Shown piece after piece: positions 36,930 to 44,824 of a stretch of DNA of 64,000 nt. The stretch covers positions 2,976,001 to 3,040,000 of the forward strand of contig NZ_CP084472.1 of NCBI RefSeq assembly GCF_020405225.1. Reading direction: 5' to 3'. This DNA is from Natrinema sp. DC36 (GTDB taxonomy: Archaea > Halobacteriota > Halobacteria > Halobacteriales > Natrialbaceae). The notes below the pieces were generated by a model. The model did no database searches and was not told the origin of the DNA. It worked only from the letters and a program-made list of their open reading frames with translations. How positions within the stretch are numbered: the first letter of the stretch is position 1; every line of letters starts with the position of its first letter. Position numbers and translations under genes: made by a program.

Positions 36930-38272
36930 CTACCACTCCTCGAGCCCGCGCAATTCCGCGGCCAGGTCACCCACAGCATCGGGTTCAAGTGCTCCGCGTT
37001 CGGTCACGATCTCGGACACGCAGTCGGCGGGCGTTACGTCGAACGTCGGGTTCAGGACATCGATCGACGCGTCGCCGGCGTAAACCGCCGATCGATCGCC
37101 GGACTCGAGGTTCACGGCCTCGCGGGTCGAGACCTTGTCCGTCGCCGCGACGACGGACACCGGAATCCCCTCGCGGTCGGCGGCGATCGCCAGCGCTCGC
37201 GTTCCGGTCTTGTTTACGACGGCGCCGTCGGGCAGGACGGTGTCGGCGCCGACCACGACGCGGTCGACGTCCTCTCCGGCGAGCACGTACGCGGTCGCCG
37301 CGTCGGTGTGGACCGTCACGGCGCTCGCCGTCGTTTCGGCCAGCGTTTCCGCGACGTCGATCCCCTCGCGAGCCGGCCGCGATTCGGCGACGAAGACGCG
37401 CGACGGCTCGCTCGTTCGGAGCGCCTCGAGGACGGTCCCCGATCGCGAGAGGGTCGCGACGCTGCCCTCGAGGCGCTCGCTCGCGTTTTTCGCGGCGGCC
37501 TCGTCGGCCGCGAGGGCTCGATCGACGTTCGACAGCGCGGACTCGAGCACCGCGGCGGCACCCGTCTCCGCGCCCTCACCACCGTCCGCACGGCCATCGT
37601 CCGATTCACTCGGTTCCGGAGAACGGCCATCGACGGCCTGGCCTCGAGCAACCGGCCCGCGAGTTCGGCGAGTTCGTCCCGCTCGCCCTCGGGATCGCCA
37701 CCGGACGAGCCGCGTTCGGCCACGAGCAGCCCCGCTCGATCGCGCAGCACCTCGAGCGCTCGTATGGACAGGAACGCGGCGCCGTGCTCGTCGTCGGCCG
37801 CGATCGATCGAACGGTGGGTGCCACGCGCTCGTACGCGGTCCACAGTTCGGGGACCGTCTCGCCGTCGGGTCCCTCGCGGTCGTCGCCGACGCCCTCGAG
37901 GATCGCGGTCGGCGGAACCCACTCGGCGGCGTCGTGTTCCTCGCTCAACTCGATCTCCCGGGCGTCGCAGGCGAACAGATAGGGGTGGACGACCCACTCG
38001 CGCTCGAGATCGGCGTCCTCGAATTCGACCGGCCGTCCGGATCGAACGAACGAAACCGTCTCTCCGGGCGCGAGGCCGGTCTCCTCGCGGATCTCCGTGC
38101 GGACCTGTTCGTCGGGGTCGCCCTCCGCAAACCCGGAGACGCCGCCCCACCGGCCCCGGTAGGTGCCGACGGCGTCGCTGCGGCGCAAGCAGAGAACGTC
38201 GCCCCGATGGCGGAGGAACGCGGTGACGACGTGAGCCGGGTCATCGCTCGGGGTGTCGGTGTCCGGGCACAT
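36930..38272 (-). pseudogene. Frameshifted fusion of a NUDIX domain and an eIF-2B/ribose-1,5-bisphosphate isomerase-like domain
   Basis: Frame one from ATG 38272 encodes a NUDIX-like domain (GRWGGVSGFAEGDPDEQ... IREETGL; the box is imperfect, with Thr for Arg) and then ...MAVLRNRVNRTMA. At about 37590 sense is lost, and the continuation GAAAVLESALSNVDRALAADEAAAKNASERL... through VDRVVVGADTVLPDGAVVNKTGT and VLNPTFDVTPADCVSEIVTERGAL to stop 36930 is in another frame. The second part is the eIF-2B alpha / R15P isomerase fold. The span of 1343 bases is one short of a multiple of three, so one deleted base (or two inserted) explains it. Haloarchaea do carry this fusion intact. Real decay, programmed -1 shift and sequence error are all possible. 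Confidence 0.78.
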
Positions 38273-38428
38273 ACGATGGCCCACGGCGACCGGGAAGGTG
38301 TCGCTTTCGAACGCGCCGCTACGGACCGCGAGGGACTCGCCCCGAGCCCGTCCTCGAGTGAGCGAAACGGACGACCAGGGGTCGTCCGCTGACGAACGCT
38401 TTTCGGAACTGCAGACGAACGCACGGCT

Positions 38429-39060: not shown

Positions 39061-39606
39061 ATGACACAGCGCGTAACGGTATCGCTCGACGACGACTCGG
39101 CCGCGGCCCTCGAGACGCTGGTCGCCGAGACGGGCAACGGACAGAGCGAGGTCGTCCGCCGCGCGCTCACCTTCTACGCGGCGAACTTCGAGGCGGCCAA
39201 CGAACGGCCGAGCGAGAACCTCGAGCGGTACTACCGGATGCTCTCCTCGGGGGAGCACGTCCTGCTCGATATCGACTTCCTGCACGCCTTCCTCGAGCAC
39301 TGCTACGCCGGCGGCGATCCCGATCCGGCGTTCGTCGAGGCGGCCGATCGGGTCTCCGACTACCACGCCCGCGAGTACGAGGCCCGATTCGAGGAAGTCG
39401 GCGACCTGCTCGAGTGGCTCTCCTTCTGTGGCTTCCTCGATGTCCGCGAGGAGGGCGAGGGCGTCTACCACCTCGTCTTTCCCTCGGAGGCCGTTCGCTG
39501 GTTCATGACCCGGTTCATCGAGCGAAGCACCGTCGAGTTGCCGACGGAGATCGAACTCGAGGGCGGCGTCTCGAAGGTGATCGTCACCGAACGGGCGGCC
39601 GACTGA
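39061..39606 (+). CDS. Ribbon-helix-helix (CopG-like) regulator with C-terminal domain
   Basis: A 181-residue protein. The first 45 residues (MTQRVTVSLDDDSAAALETLVAETGNGQSEVVRRALTFYAANFE) form a ribbon-helix-helix DNA-binding domain. The rest is mostly helical (LLDIDFLHAFLEHCYAGGDPDPAFVEAADRVSDYHAREYEARFEEVGDLLEWLSFCGFLDV) and ends with a short beta segment; it may be a ligand-sensing domain. A haloarchaea-specific architecture, I believe; the targets are unknown. ATG 39061 is fixed by the RHH strand. Confidence 0.85.
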   Translation: MTQRVTVSLDDDSAAALETLVAETGNGQSEVVRRALTFYAANFEAANERPSENLERYYRMLSSGEHVLLDIDFLHAFLEHCYAGGDPDPAFVEAADRVSDYHAREYEARFEEVGDLLEWLSFCGFLDVREEGEGVYHLVFPSEAVRWFMTRFIERSTVELPTEIELEGGVSKVIVTERAAD

Positions 39607-39875
39607 CGCGAACGGATGGCCGACTGATGCGAACAGGCTATCGACTACCGATCGCTCGGCACGAACGCCGGTTTGCAATAGACGATTGACGGATGAATGC
39701 GCTCAGCAGCTATCAGTGAACGCGCTCGAACACTGCGAACGGACCGTGACGATCACACGGGTTCATACGAACTCATACGACGATCACAGCGCCTCGAGTC
39801 GCCGGAGCGTCCGTATGTTCGACTCTTAACAACCCTTTTGGGAATCTCGGAGAGTGGTGCATGTGAGTACACATC

Positions 39876-41081
39876 ATGGGCGTCATCGACCGAGTGAAGG
39901 CGATCGGACCGGGCGCGCTCGTCGCGGCGGCGTTCGTCGGTCCGGGGACGGTAACGACCGCGAGCGTGATCGGTGCCGAGTACGCGTACCTGCTCGTGTG
40001 AACGATCGCGTTCTCGATCCTGGCGACGATCGTGCTCCAGGAGATGAGCGCGCGGCTGGGACTGATCACGCAGGAAGGGCTGGGCGAAGCGTTCCGAAAC
40101 GAGTTCGATAACCCGATCCCGCAGGCGATCACCGTCGCACTCGTCGTGAGCGCGATCGGCATCGGAACCGCGGCGTTCCAGACGGGCAACATCGTCGGCG
40201 GCGCTGCCGGCCTGGCGACGATCACCGGCGTTAGCGAGAACATCTGGGGACCGATTATGGGTCTCGTCGCCGCCGGCCTACTGTGGACGGGGAGCTACAA
40301 GCTGATCGAGCGGGTCTTCATCGGCCTCGTCACCGTCATGGGACTGGCGTTCGTGGTCAACGCGATCATGGTCCGGCCCGATCTCGGCTCCCTGGCGGGC
40401 GGACTCGTCCCGGCCGTCCCCGAGGGATCGGCGTACCTCATCGCCGGCCTCGTCGGGACCACCGTCGTCGGCTACAACCTGTTCTTGCACGCGAGCACCG
40501 TCCAGGAGCGGTGGGACGGTGCCGAAGACCTCGCCGAGTGTCGCGCGGACACGATCGGCATGGTCATCGTCGGCGGCATCATCACGACCGCGATCGTCGT
40601 CACGGCCGCCGCGGTGTTCCCCGAAGGAACCTCGATCAGTAACGTCGGCGAGATGGCCGACCAACTCGAGCCGGTCTTCGGCGGCTACGCGCTCACGTTC
40701 TTCGCGATCGGCCTCTTCGCGGCCGGCTTCACGAGCGCGATGAGCGCGCCGCTCGCGGGTGCCTACGCCACCGCCGGCGCGCTGGGCTGGGAGCGGGACC
40801 TGACGTCGACCCGGTTCCGGGCGATCTGGATGACGATCCTCGGCGTCGGCATCGTTTTCTCGGCGCTGGACTACAACCCCGTGCAGGTGATCGTCTTCGC
40901 ACAGGTCGCCAACGGGCTCTTGCTGCCGATTCTGGCGGTGTTCCTCATCTACGCGATGAACAACGACGAGCTGCTGGGCGAGTACACGAACAGCACCCTC
41001 CAGAACGTTCTCGGCGGGCTCGTCACGCTCGTCGTGATCGGTATCGGCCTCCGAACGCTCTACGACGTGTTGCTCGTCTAA
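39876..41081 (+). pseudogene. Nramp-like transporter with in-frame TGA at codon 42
   Basis: From ATG 39876 the frame reads MGVIDRVKAIGPGALVAAAFVGPGTVTTASVIGAEYAYLLV, then TGA (39999-40001), then TIAFSILATIVLQEMSARLGL to stop 41081 in the same frame. The stop replaces what should be a Trp (TGG) in the first helices. The full protein would be 401 residues with about 11 helices. It is Nramp-like, yet the metal-binding DPGN of TM1 reads GPGT, and the MPHN of TM6 reads VGYN before LFLHAS. It is 12 bases upstream of hyuA, so they share an mRNA. The part after the stop could restart at ATG 40032. Its true substrate is unknown. Confidence 0.82.
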
Positions 41082-41093
41082 CTAACGGATCGA

Positions 41094-43171
41094 ATGACAG
41101 ATTCAAACGCACACGACTCGAACGCGGACGCATCGATGGATACCAACGAATCGACGGGGGACGGTAACACGCGCATCGGTGTCGACGTCGGCGGCACGTT
41201 CACCGACGTGGCGCTCTCCGTCGACGACCGGCTCGTCACCGCGAAAGTGCCGACGACCGACGACCAGCACGTCGGCGTCCTCGAGGGAATCGACAAGGCC
41301 TGCGACCGCGCCGGGATCGCGCCGAGCGAGATCGACGGCTTCGCGCACGCGATGACCGTCTCCGTCAACGCCCTGCTCGAGCGCGACGGCGCGAAGACGG
41401 CGCTCGTGACGACCGAGGGCTTTCGCGACGTCCTCGAGATCGGCCGCCAGGACCGACCCGATCTCTACGACCTCGAGGCCGAGAAGCCCGACCCGCTGGT
41501 CCCTCGCGAACTGCGGTTCGAAGTCGACGAACGGACGACGACCGAGGGAGTCGAGCGGTCGGTCGACGCCGACGCGGTCCGCGACATCGCAGCAACCCTG
41601 CGCGAGCGCGATGTCGAAGCGGTCGCTGTCTGCCTGCTGCACGCGTACGCCGATCCGGATAACGAGCGAGCCGTCGCCGAGACGCTGCGCGAGGAGCTCG
41701 CGGTGCCGATATCCGCGTCCCACGAGGTGCTCGCCGAGTTCCGCGAGTTCGAGCGGACGTCCACGACGGCCGTCGACGCCTACCTCCGACCGGCCATCGA
41801 CGGCTACGTCGGCCGGCTGGTCGAGGAAGCCGACGCGGCGGGGATCCCGGCACCGTGGATCATGCAGGCCAACGGCGGTATCGCAGACCCCGAAACGGTT
41901 CGCGAGCACGCCGTGACGACGACGCTCTCGGGGCCGGCCGCCGGCGTCGTCGGCGCTGCGGCGACCGTCGACGACGCCGACGTCGAGGGGCTCGTCACCT
42001 TCGACATGGGCGGCACCTCGAGCGACGTGAGTCTCGTCCGGGACGGGCGAGCGGAGCGGACGACCGACGCCGAGGTGGACGGAATACCGATCCGGACGCC
42101 GATGGTCGACGTGAACACCGTCGGCGCGGGCGGTAGCTCCGTCGCCTGGGTCGATCCCGGCGGCGCGCTCCGGGTCGGCCCGCGCTCTGCGGGCGCCCAG
42201 CCCGGTCCCGCCTGCTACGGTCGCGGGGGGACCGAGCCGACCGTCACCGACGCCGCCGTCGTGCTCGGCTACATCGGCCCCGACACCGCGCTGGGCGGGG
42301 AACTGACGCTCGACGTCGACGCCGCCCGCGACGCACTCGAGGGACTGGCGGACGAGGCCGGCCTCGAGGACGCGCTCGAGGCCGCTCGCGGGGTCTACCG
42401 CGTGGCGAACGCGACGATGACGCGGACGATCCGGTCCGTCACCGTCGAGCGCGGGCACGACCCACGCGAGTTCGCACTCGTGGCCTTCGGCGGCGCGGGC
42501 CCGATGCACGCCGCGGCGCTGGCGGACTCGCTGTCCGTCGACCGGGTCGTCGTCCCGCGACCGAGCGGGGTCCTGTCGGCCTTCGGCCTCCTCGCGGCCG
42601 ACGAGAGCTACGACGCGGCTCGGACCGTCGGAGCGGACCTCCGGGCGGCCGATCCGGCCGATCTCGAGGGCGTCTACGACGACCTCGTGGCGGACGTCCT
42701 CGCGGACGCGTCCGATCCGGACGCGGCGCGGGTCGAGCGCGCCGCCGACTGCCGGTACGCGGGCCAGAGCTTCGAGCTGACAGTAGCCGTCGACGACGAG
42801 TTCGACGCGGACGAGGTTGCGGAACGCTTCCACGACGCTCACGAGCGGGCCTACGGCTACGCGATGGACGACTCGATCGAGATCGTTACCCTCCGCGCGA
42901 CGGCGACGGTTCCCGGCTCGGAGCCGACCGTCCGGTACGACGGCGCGGGCGACGACATCATCGGCACCCGGCGAGTGCACTTCGCCGACGGCGCGCGGTC
43001 GGCGACCGTCTTCGATCGGGATCGGCTCGCACCCGGCGCGACGGTGTCCGGACCGGCGATCCTCGAACAGGCCGAGAGCACGACCGTCATCCCGCCCGCG
43101 TGGACCGGCGACGTGCTCGCTGACGGCACCCTGGTACTGACTCGAGCGAGCGACACGGCGGAGGGACACCA

Positions 43172-43175
<4 letters not shown>
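41094..43175 (+). CDS. hyuA: Hydantoinase/oxoprolinase subunit A
   Basis: A 693-residue ATP-grasp-like/actin-fold protein. IGVDVGGTFTDVALS (about residue 24) is the phosphate-binding start of the Hydant_A_N domain; TFDMGGTSSDVSLV near residue 300 and FGGAGPMHAAALADSLSVDRVVVPRPSGVLSAFG near 465 mark the Hydantoinase_A domain, followed by the C-terminal domain. Together with HyuB it should hydrolyse a cyclic amide (N-methylhydantoin, 5-oxoproline) with ATP, or carboxylate a ketone as in acetone/acetophenone carboxylases. It overlaps hyuB by ATGA and follows the Nramp-like gene by 12 bases. Confidence 0.93.

Positions 43176-44824
<1,649 letters not shown>

Follow-up and report, generated by a model that had tools for sequence, protein, structure and literature searches.

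A clade of NRAMP-family proteins without metal ligands, linked to hyuAB in haloarchaea and to HyuAB or PxpABC in bacteria, as putative importers of 5-oxoproline

Described relatives and lactam-opening enzymes

PxpT of Corynebacterium glutamicum, a member of the NRAMP family, is required for growth on 5-oxoproline, with complementation, and in the available part of the report its authors leave metal transport possible (PMC13274462). Overexpression of its Bacillus subtilis homologue, YcsG, raised cellular manganese, and this protein was claimed to be a manganese importer and renamed MntG (available sections of PMC10448178). MumT of Acinetobacter baumannii, the loss of which lowered cellular manganese, was also reported as a manganese importer (PMC5050338, in part) and is described in a manganese-and-urea operon (mum). 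At two A. baumannii mum loci (L093 and L116), MumT was encoded beside homologues of PxpA, PxpB, and PxpC, so that 5-oxoproline, and not urea, may be what this operon handles. The cargo of such motif-less NRAMP relatives, metal or organic lactam, is disputed for YcsG/MntG/PxpT. Among the 80 PxpT loci collected, 79 contained pxpA, pxpB, and pxpC within the flank and none contained hyuA or hyuB, and the metal ligands were lost in all 18 aligned PxpT rows, which read GxxF-GxxG. The YcsG chain in 9a52 was not recovered by sequence with a PxpT query.

Canonical Nramp/MntH proteins (DraNramp, E. coli MntH, and BfraNramp of clade B) are defined by DxxN and A/CxxM, and the NRMT proteins by DxxG-TxxA/T (PMC8806188, in the portion available). 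EleNRMT, an NRMT magnesium transporter, is described as moving magnesium and manganese with a changed site. A 2026 preprint gathers Nramp-related proteins that lack the metal motifs of TM1 and TM6 into "G-motif" groups and calls them uncharacterised, except for the NRMT-like proteins and the MntG-containing group (PMC12873925, excerpt). These groups, which can be likened to the family reported here by description only, also lack the metal motifs, and none of them is tied to HyuAB in that excerpt.

PxpABC, an enzyme with 5-oxoproline as its established substrate (PMC13274462 and PMC10448178, available parts), is described as having no similarity to the ATP-dependent carboxylases, relatives of the HyuAB family. 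The latter family includes hydantoinases and caprolactamase and opens hydantoins and other lactams; its HyuB-family subunits are described with a conserved metal site, modelled with zinc in CapB and with manganese in acetone carboxylase. Sulfolobus acidocaldarius grows on pyroglutamate, and a two-subunit HyuAB-type pair is its predicted 5-oxoprolinase (PMC6507225, in part). Further sources, likewise available in part, are PMC8453981 and PMC9606685.

Here we report an NRAMP clade with GPGT in TM1, the loss of all four metal ligands in it, its linkage to hyuAB, and the exchange of its enzyme partner. Databases name the proteins of this clade "divalent metal transporter". Because its members pair with two lactam-opening enzymes that are unrelated to each other, this second clade provides independent evidence on the dispute outlined above, as well as intact proteins. 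Within open-access PubMed Central, no combination of NRAMP and hydantoinase was found, only the PxpT and YcsG papers were judged relevant for Nramp with oxoprolinase from the text available, and nothing on haloarchaeal 5-oxoproline uptake was found by title or start of abstract. As far as searched, the link of the GPGT clade to HyuAB or PxpABC is not in print; NRAMP-family uptake of 5-oxoproline is itself known from PxpT.

The transporter locus of Natrinema sp. DC36

The window, a stretch of 64,000 nucleotides from Natrinema sp. DC36 (NZ_CP084472.1, positions 2,976,001 to 3,040,000), contained a frame of 401 codons (39876-41081, + strand) that was assigned to the GPGT clade of the NRAMP family by its Pfam match, motifs, and predicted fold. 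It matched PF01566 (Nramp) over nearly its full length (321.7 bits, E 7.5e-96, cut-off 29.8). TM1 reads AFVGPGTVTTAS, with GPGT where canonical proteins have DPGN, and TM6 reads GLVGTTVVGYNLFLH, with VGYN where they have MPHN. The sequence thus bears out the initial annotation, which had noted the absence of both canonical metal motifs and a distance of 12 bases to hyuA; the stop codon of the transporter ends at 41081 and the ATG of hyuA lies at 41094. Two intact genes for an ATP-dependent hydantoinase/oxoprolinase follow on the same strand, namely hyuA for the large subunit (41094-43175, +; PF01968, E 1.3e-95; PF05378, E 1.4e-51) and hyuB for the small subunit (43172-44824, +; PF02538, E 7.5e-206). 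The Hydantoinase_A and Hydantoinase_B domains cover the full length of the two products, which are full-length members of the HyuAB/CapAB/OplAH group of ATP-dependent lactamases. The best solved relative of the hyuA product was 7hk5, labelled N-methylhydantoinase (E 2.3e-143), and the family relatives of the hyuB product included 7hk5 and CapB. A gene for an F420 ligase and a luciferase-like gene were located 3' of hyuB. A gene resembling NUDIX and initiation factor 2B (named by eye; 36933-38284, - strand) contained a frameshift near 37590 relative to its ortholog in L203, a related locus without the transporter.

The transporter gene of the window is interrupted by an in-frame TGA at codon 42 (39999-40001, +), after which an open frame resumes only at the GTG at 40032 and would encode 349 amino acids without TM1. 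Orthologs of at least 88% identity were present in 16 of the 29 same-genus genomes, and of these 14 were intact, the window copy had one stop, and the copy of G022 was split by an insertion. Values of dN/dS between the window copy and seven orthologs were 0.08-0.19, with no decay besides the single stop, which indicates purifying selection on the gene until recently or an error at the stop, so that the interruption would either have arisen very recently or stem from a sequencing error. Provided that the stop is genuine, the strain is probably without the uptake step. Because the window copy is broken, the functional claims below rest on intact relatives. In G022 (L021 and L033), the insertion measured 1.17 kb and carried transposase-like frames; the 4-kb stretch was present identically on two contigs of this genome, and a third contig carried pieces of it.

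A structural model of the window protein, computed with the stop read through as one residue and from an alignment that included 23 distant PxpT rows, had a pLDDT of 74 and a pTM of 0.76, with helix breaks after residues 19 and 196. It superposed on 6c3i with Z 41.0 and an rmsd of 3.0 over 371 residues, on near-full-length DraNramp chains with Z 37.6-41.0, and its best Foldseek match was EleNRMT (TM 0.83), as for an NRAMP fold. The protein is predicted to adopt an NRAMP fold of the LeuT type in which TM1 and TM6 are broken; the model is silent on the substrate.

Metal-site residues and gene neighbourhoods of the clade

In all 32 aligned haloarchaeal rows (DraNramp numbering), the replacements D56G, N59T, A227T, M230V, P231G, and H232Y were found, so that the four metal-ligand positions (D56, N59, A227, and M230) were replaced in 32 of 32 and held no acid, asparagine, methionine, or cysteine; the uniformity of the change indicates that it is not due to chance. 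Glu134 was also replaced in every row, by asparagine in 31 and by aspartate in one. The family therefore has the Pfam family and predicted fold in common with canonical Nramp proteins but lacks DxxN, A/CxxM, His232, and Glu134. It has an altered metal site in common with the NRMT magnesium transporters, whereas these keep the TM1 aspartate (DxxG-TxxA/T) and the window family, a separate clade in the tree, reads GxxT-TxxV. The PxpT clade is about 22-25% identical to the window protein and carries the GxxF-GxxG signature instead of GxxT-TxxV. Besides membership in the NRAMP family, the two have in common a TM1 GPG without aspartate, a TM6 tyrosine for histidine, a TM3 asparagine for Glu134, and linkage to an established or putative ATP-dependent 5-oxoprolinase; the operon partner is pxpABC for PxpT, hyuAB for the window protein, and pxpABC for some bacterial GPGT members. 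Among 12 diagnostic states, PxpT held five in common with the haloarchaeal family and other groups one to four. Placement of the window gene within the YcsG/PxpT clade was considered and set aside, since the best trees separate the PxpT clade and the window family (each 100/100), although a joint clade was not rejected (AU p 0.366), and the likeness of the two may be either inherited or convergent. Loss of the TM1 aspartate is common among NRAMP-like haloarchaeal proteins, and ligand loss was rejected as proof of function because several such clades lack this residue. In the flanks read for these other ligand-less clades, no HyuAB or PxpABC neighbours were found, and the argument accordingly rests on linkage and partner exchange, not on the motif. 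Further NRAMP-like clades of haloarchaea, in which DPGN is replaced by GPAT, GAGS, or GSGS, were represented by L002, L003, L004, L022, L025, L028, and L034, and L022 was adjoined by genes that resembled, by eye, those of coenzyme biosynthesis.

The transporter family was detected in 112 of the 391 Halobacteria-class genomes (E up to 1e-60). HyuB was mapped in all 112, and in 106 of them, a phylogenetically non-independent count because many of these genomes are closely related, hyuB lay 1988-2377 bp downstream on the same strand. The genus-level and class-level genome samples overlap. In G386 and G261, the two genes were on different contigs, with a contig end close by on at least one side, as would be expected for an assembly break between them, and in G343 hyuB lay at base 34 of a contig whose opposite end was 2075 bases past the transporter, an arrangement consistent with a circular replicon. 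The exceptions were G243, in which hyuB was convergent and 3 kb from the transporter, and G070 and G100, in which no hyuB was found near it. The enzyme is far commoner than the transporter, as a HyuB relative was present in 343 of the 391 genomes (E up to 1e-160), and eight same-genus genomes without the transporter kept a HyuB 85-91% identical to that of the window. The hyuAB surroundings were read in 19 transporter-lacking genomes; in a gene-by-gene comparison with the window, made for L203, the flanks were syntenic and the regulator-transporter cassette was missing.

The order regulator-NRAMP-hyuA-hyuB also occurred in Haloferax mediterranei, Haloarcula, and Haloferax gibbonsii, with two glutamate dehydrogenase genes upstream in the Haloarcula locus, and Natrononativus contained the regulator and the transporter with no hyuAB in range. 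A gene of the superfamily of arylmalonate decarboxylase and Asp-Glu-hydantoin racemase, which is cofactor-independent, was present within 15 kb in 13 of 20 diverse haloarchaeal loci (12027-12797 in L072, and 12 further loci among L063-L082). In L064 it was directly 3' of the transporter, with no hyuAB in range. Such a neighbour fits an organic, chiral substrate better than a metal. PxpA was absent from the window genome when this was searched; PxpA (LamB/YcsF) was found in 51 of the 391 haloarchaeal genomes, also on a Natribaculum plasmid. Its distribution was not complementary to that of HyuB in haloarchaea, as it occurred in 7 of the 48 HyuB-lacking genomes and in 44 of the 343 HyuB-bearing ones. 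Both types of 5-oxoprolinase may coexist in some haloarchaea. By eye, no NRAMP gene was seen in the haloarchaeal pxpA neighbourhoods L097, L223, and L225, and the viral contigs contained no relative of the transporter.

At E up to 1e-40, matches were found in 4 of 219 Pseudomonadota and 17 of 198 Actinomycetota genomes, and the regions of 20 of these 21 (all except G790) were read, 14 of which had a GPGT- or GPGS-type TM1. HyuAB lay beside the transporter in L242, L243, L244, L245, and L252, pxpABC in L247, L251, and L253, and pxpA alone within range in L249 and L250; neither enzyme was found at L254 and L255 or at L246 and L248, whose contigs measure 6.4 and 8.6 kb, respectively. In a tree from which L248 was left out and in which L255 fell outside the clade, 12 bacterial and 10 haloarchaeal rows formed one clade (99/98). 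Within it, L252, with the order hyuA-hyuB-transporter, and L253, with the order transporter-pxpA-pxpB-pxpC and gaps of 19-26 bp between matches, were sister rows (100/98). For Bacillota, hyuAB or pxpABC neighbours had been predicted and the prediction recorded beforehand; eight of 256 genomes gave a match (E up to 1e-60), and seven of these eight loci, which were placed by identity and not by tree, contained complete pxpABC in the region. Neither hyuAB nor pxpABC was found in the region of the most divergent one, L277, which has a GTGT motif. Over the bacterial GPGT-type loci, L255 being left out as outside the clade, 17 of 21 were beside HyuAB (5) or PxpABC (12, two of them with only pxpA in range), and the four with neither were L246, L248, L254, and L277. 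On the other hand, hyuA, hyuB, pxpA, pxpB, and pxpC were all absent from the flanks of 37 other NRAMP-family loci, of which 27 were read with flanks of about 1.5-2 kb or shorter and ten with flanks of about 5-7 kb. Since PxpABC acts as a 5-oxoprolinase and HyuAB enzymes as a family open lactams, the point common to the two partners is the substrate.

Probable substrate of the clade and its uptake cassette

From the intact relatives and their gene neighbourhoods, we consider it likely that the substrate imported by the GPGT clade is 5-oxoproline (pyroglutamate) or a closely similar lactam, which the adjacent HyuAB or PxpABC would open. The initial annotation had proposed import of either an organic substrate or a cofactor ion for the hydantoinase/oxoprolinase; the neighbours favour the former and weaken the latter. 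The check that it suggested, whether hyuAB or other amide-hydrolysing genes are enriched next to homologues, was made with the above counts in haloarchaea and bacteria, which favour the organic substrate. Homologues mostly distant from hyuAB would have spoken against its proposal; those of haloarchaea are not, and most of the bacterial homologues lie beside PxpABC instead. A HyuAB neighbour alone leaves the substrate unfixed, since enzymes of this family also open hydantoins and other lactams. The exchange is most simply explained if the transporter supplies 5-oxoproline to either enzyme, according to which one the cell has. The GPGT protein, having lost the four metal side chains, would move 5-oxoproline by LeuT-fold alternating access, and the enzyme of the adjacent genes, ATP-dependent HyuAB in haloarchaea and some bacteria and PxpABC in others, would then open the lactam ring to give glutamate. 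The substrate, the direction and driving ion of transport, and the role of haloarchaeal HyuAB as a 5-oxoprolinase are what we infer here from comparative data.

The transporter might still import a divalent metal (manganese, magnesium, zinc, or other) through the altered site and be linked to HyuAB and PxpABC because these would need that metal. The conserved divalent-metal site of HyuB-family subunits means that metal supply could explain the linkage, cellular manganese is affected by two members of the separate PxpT clade (YcsG/MntG and MumT), and EleNRMT is an example of transport of magnesium and manganese through a changed site. However, EleNRMT keeps the TM1 aspartate and the GPGT clade does not, position 56 being glycine in 32 of 32 rows and the ligand positions being without the residues listed above. 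What the two unrelated partner families have in common is more plainly a class of substrate than any known metal, the neighbour in L064 belongs to the racemase superfamily with no hyuAB in range, and none of six canonical and NRMT-like loci with 7-kb flanks was linked to HyuAB or PxpABC; metal import therefore appears unlikely. Slightly more doubtful still is the import of another cyclic amide, such as a hydantoin, another lactam, or a cyclic imide, for opening by HyuAB. The range of the HyuAB family, with its hydantoinases and caprolactamase, the label of the nearest solved HyuA relative, and the racemase-superfamily gene, which would also fit hydantoins or dicarboxylates, are consistent with it, but bacterial relatives of the same clade pair with PxpABC, which points to 5-oxoproline, and the neighbour families that recurred in at least 3 of the 22 clustered loci included no carbamoylase-like gene. 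That the linkage reflects common descent of a single operon whose transporter and enzyme are functionally unrelated is very improbable. Adjacency in close relatives, as among the 112 genomes, is not independent evidence, but the unit recurs in different replicons and settings, including Haloferax and Haloarcula plasmids, and in Actinomycetota and Pseudomonadota, and the exchange of the partner enzyme within the clade already disfavours this account.

Import of 5-oxoproline by the GPGT clade would also provide a substrate hypothesis for the hyuAB pair that most haloarchaea keep. A broader scenario, to which we give even chances, would have two NRAMP clades (PxpT with GPGF, and GPGT) become importers of cyclic amino acids, the GPGT clade exchange PxpABC and HyuAB, the haloarchaeal HyuAB serve as the archaeal 5-oxoprolinase, and a CopG-controlled cassette be gained and lost. 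On the likelier reading given first, the transporter and the CopG regulator of haloarchaea would form an optional uptake cassette before a hyuAB pair that most haloarchaea retain in any case, presumably for the salvage of 5-oxoproline formed inside the cell.

The regulator of this cassette, a ribbon-helix-helix protein of the CopG type (39061-39606, +; PF01402, E 9.6e-10), accompanied the transporter in 18 of the 20 diverse haloarchaeal loci (L063-L082). Metal sensing of the NikR type was considered for it and rejected, as only the 35-residue ribbon-helix-helix part matched (18.7 bits against a cut-off of 83). Between the regulator gene and the transporter, three TTCAYAC-like half-sites with 10-bp spacing (39752-39778, +) form a candidate operator that may be bound by the CopG regulator. 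Of the same-genus loci with the transporter, 14 of 15 contained tandem TTCAYAC half-sites, as against none of 19 hyuAB loci without it. An alignment of 19 upstream regions also revealed a conserved TCTTAACAACC box (39824-39834, +) upstream of the transporter, which is a candidate archaeal promoter element.
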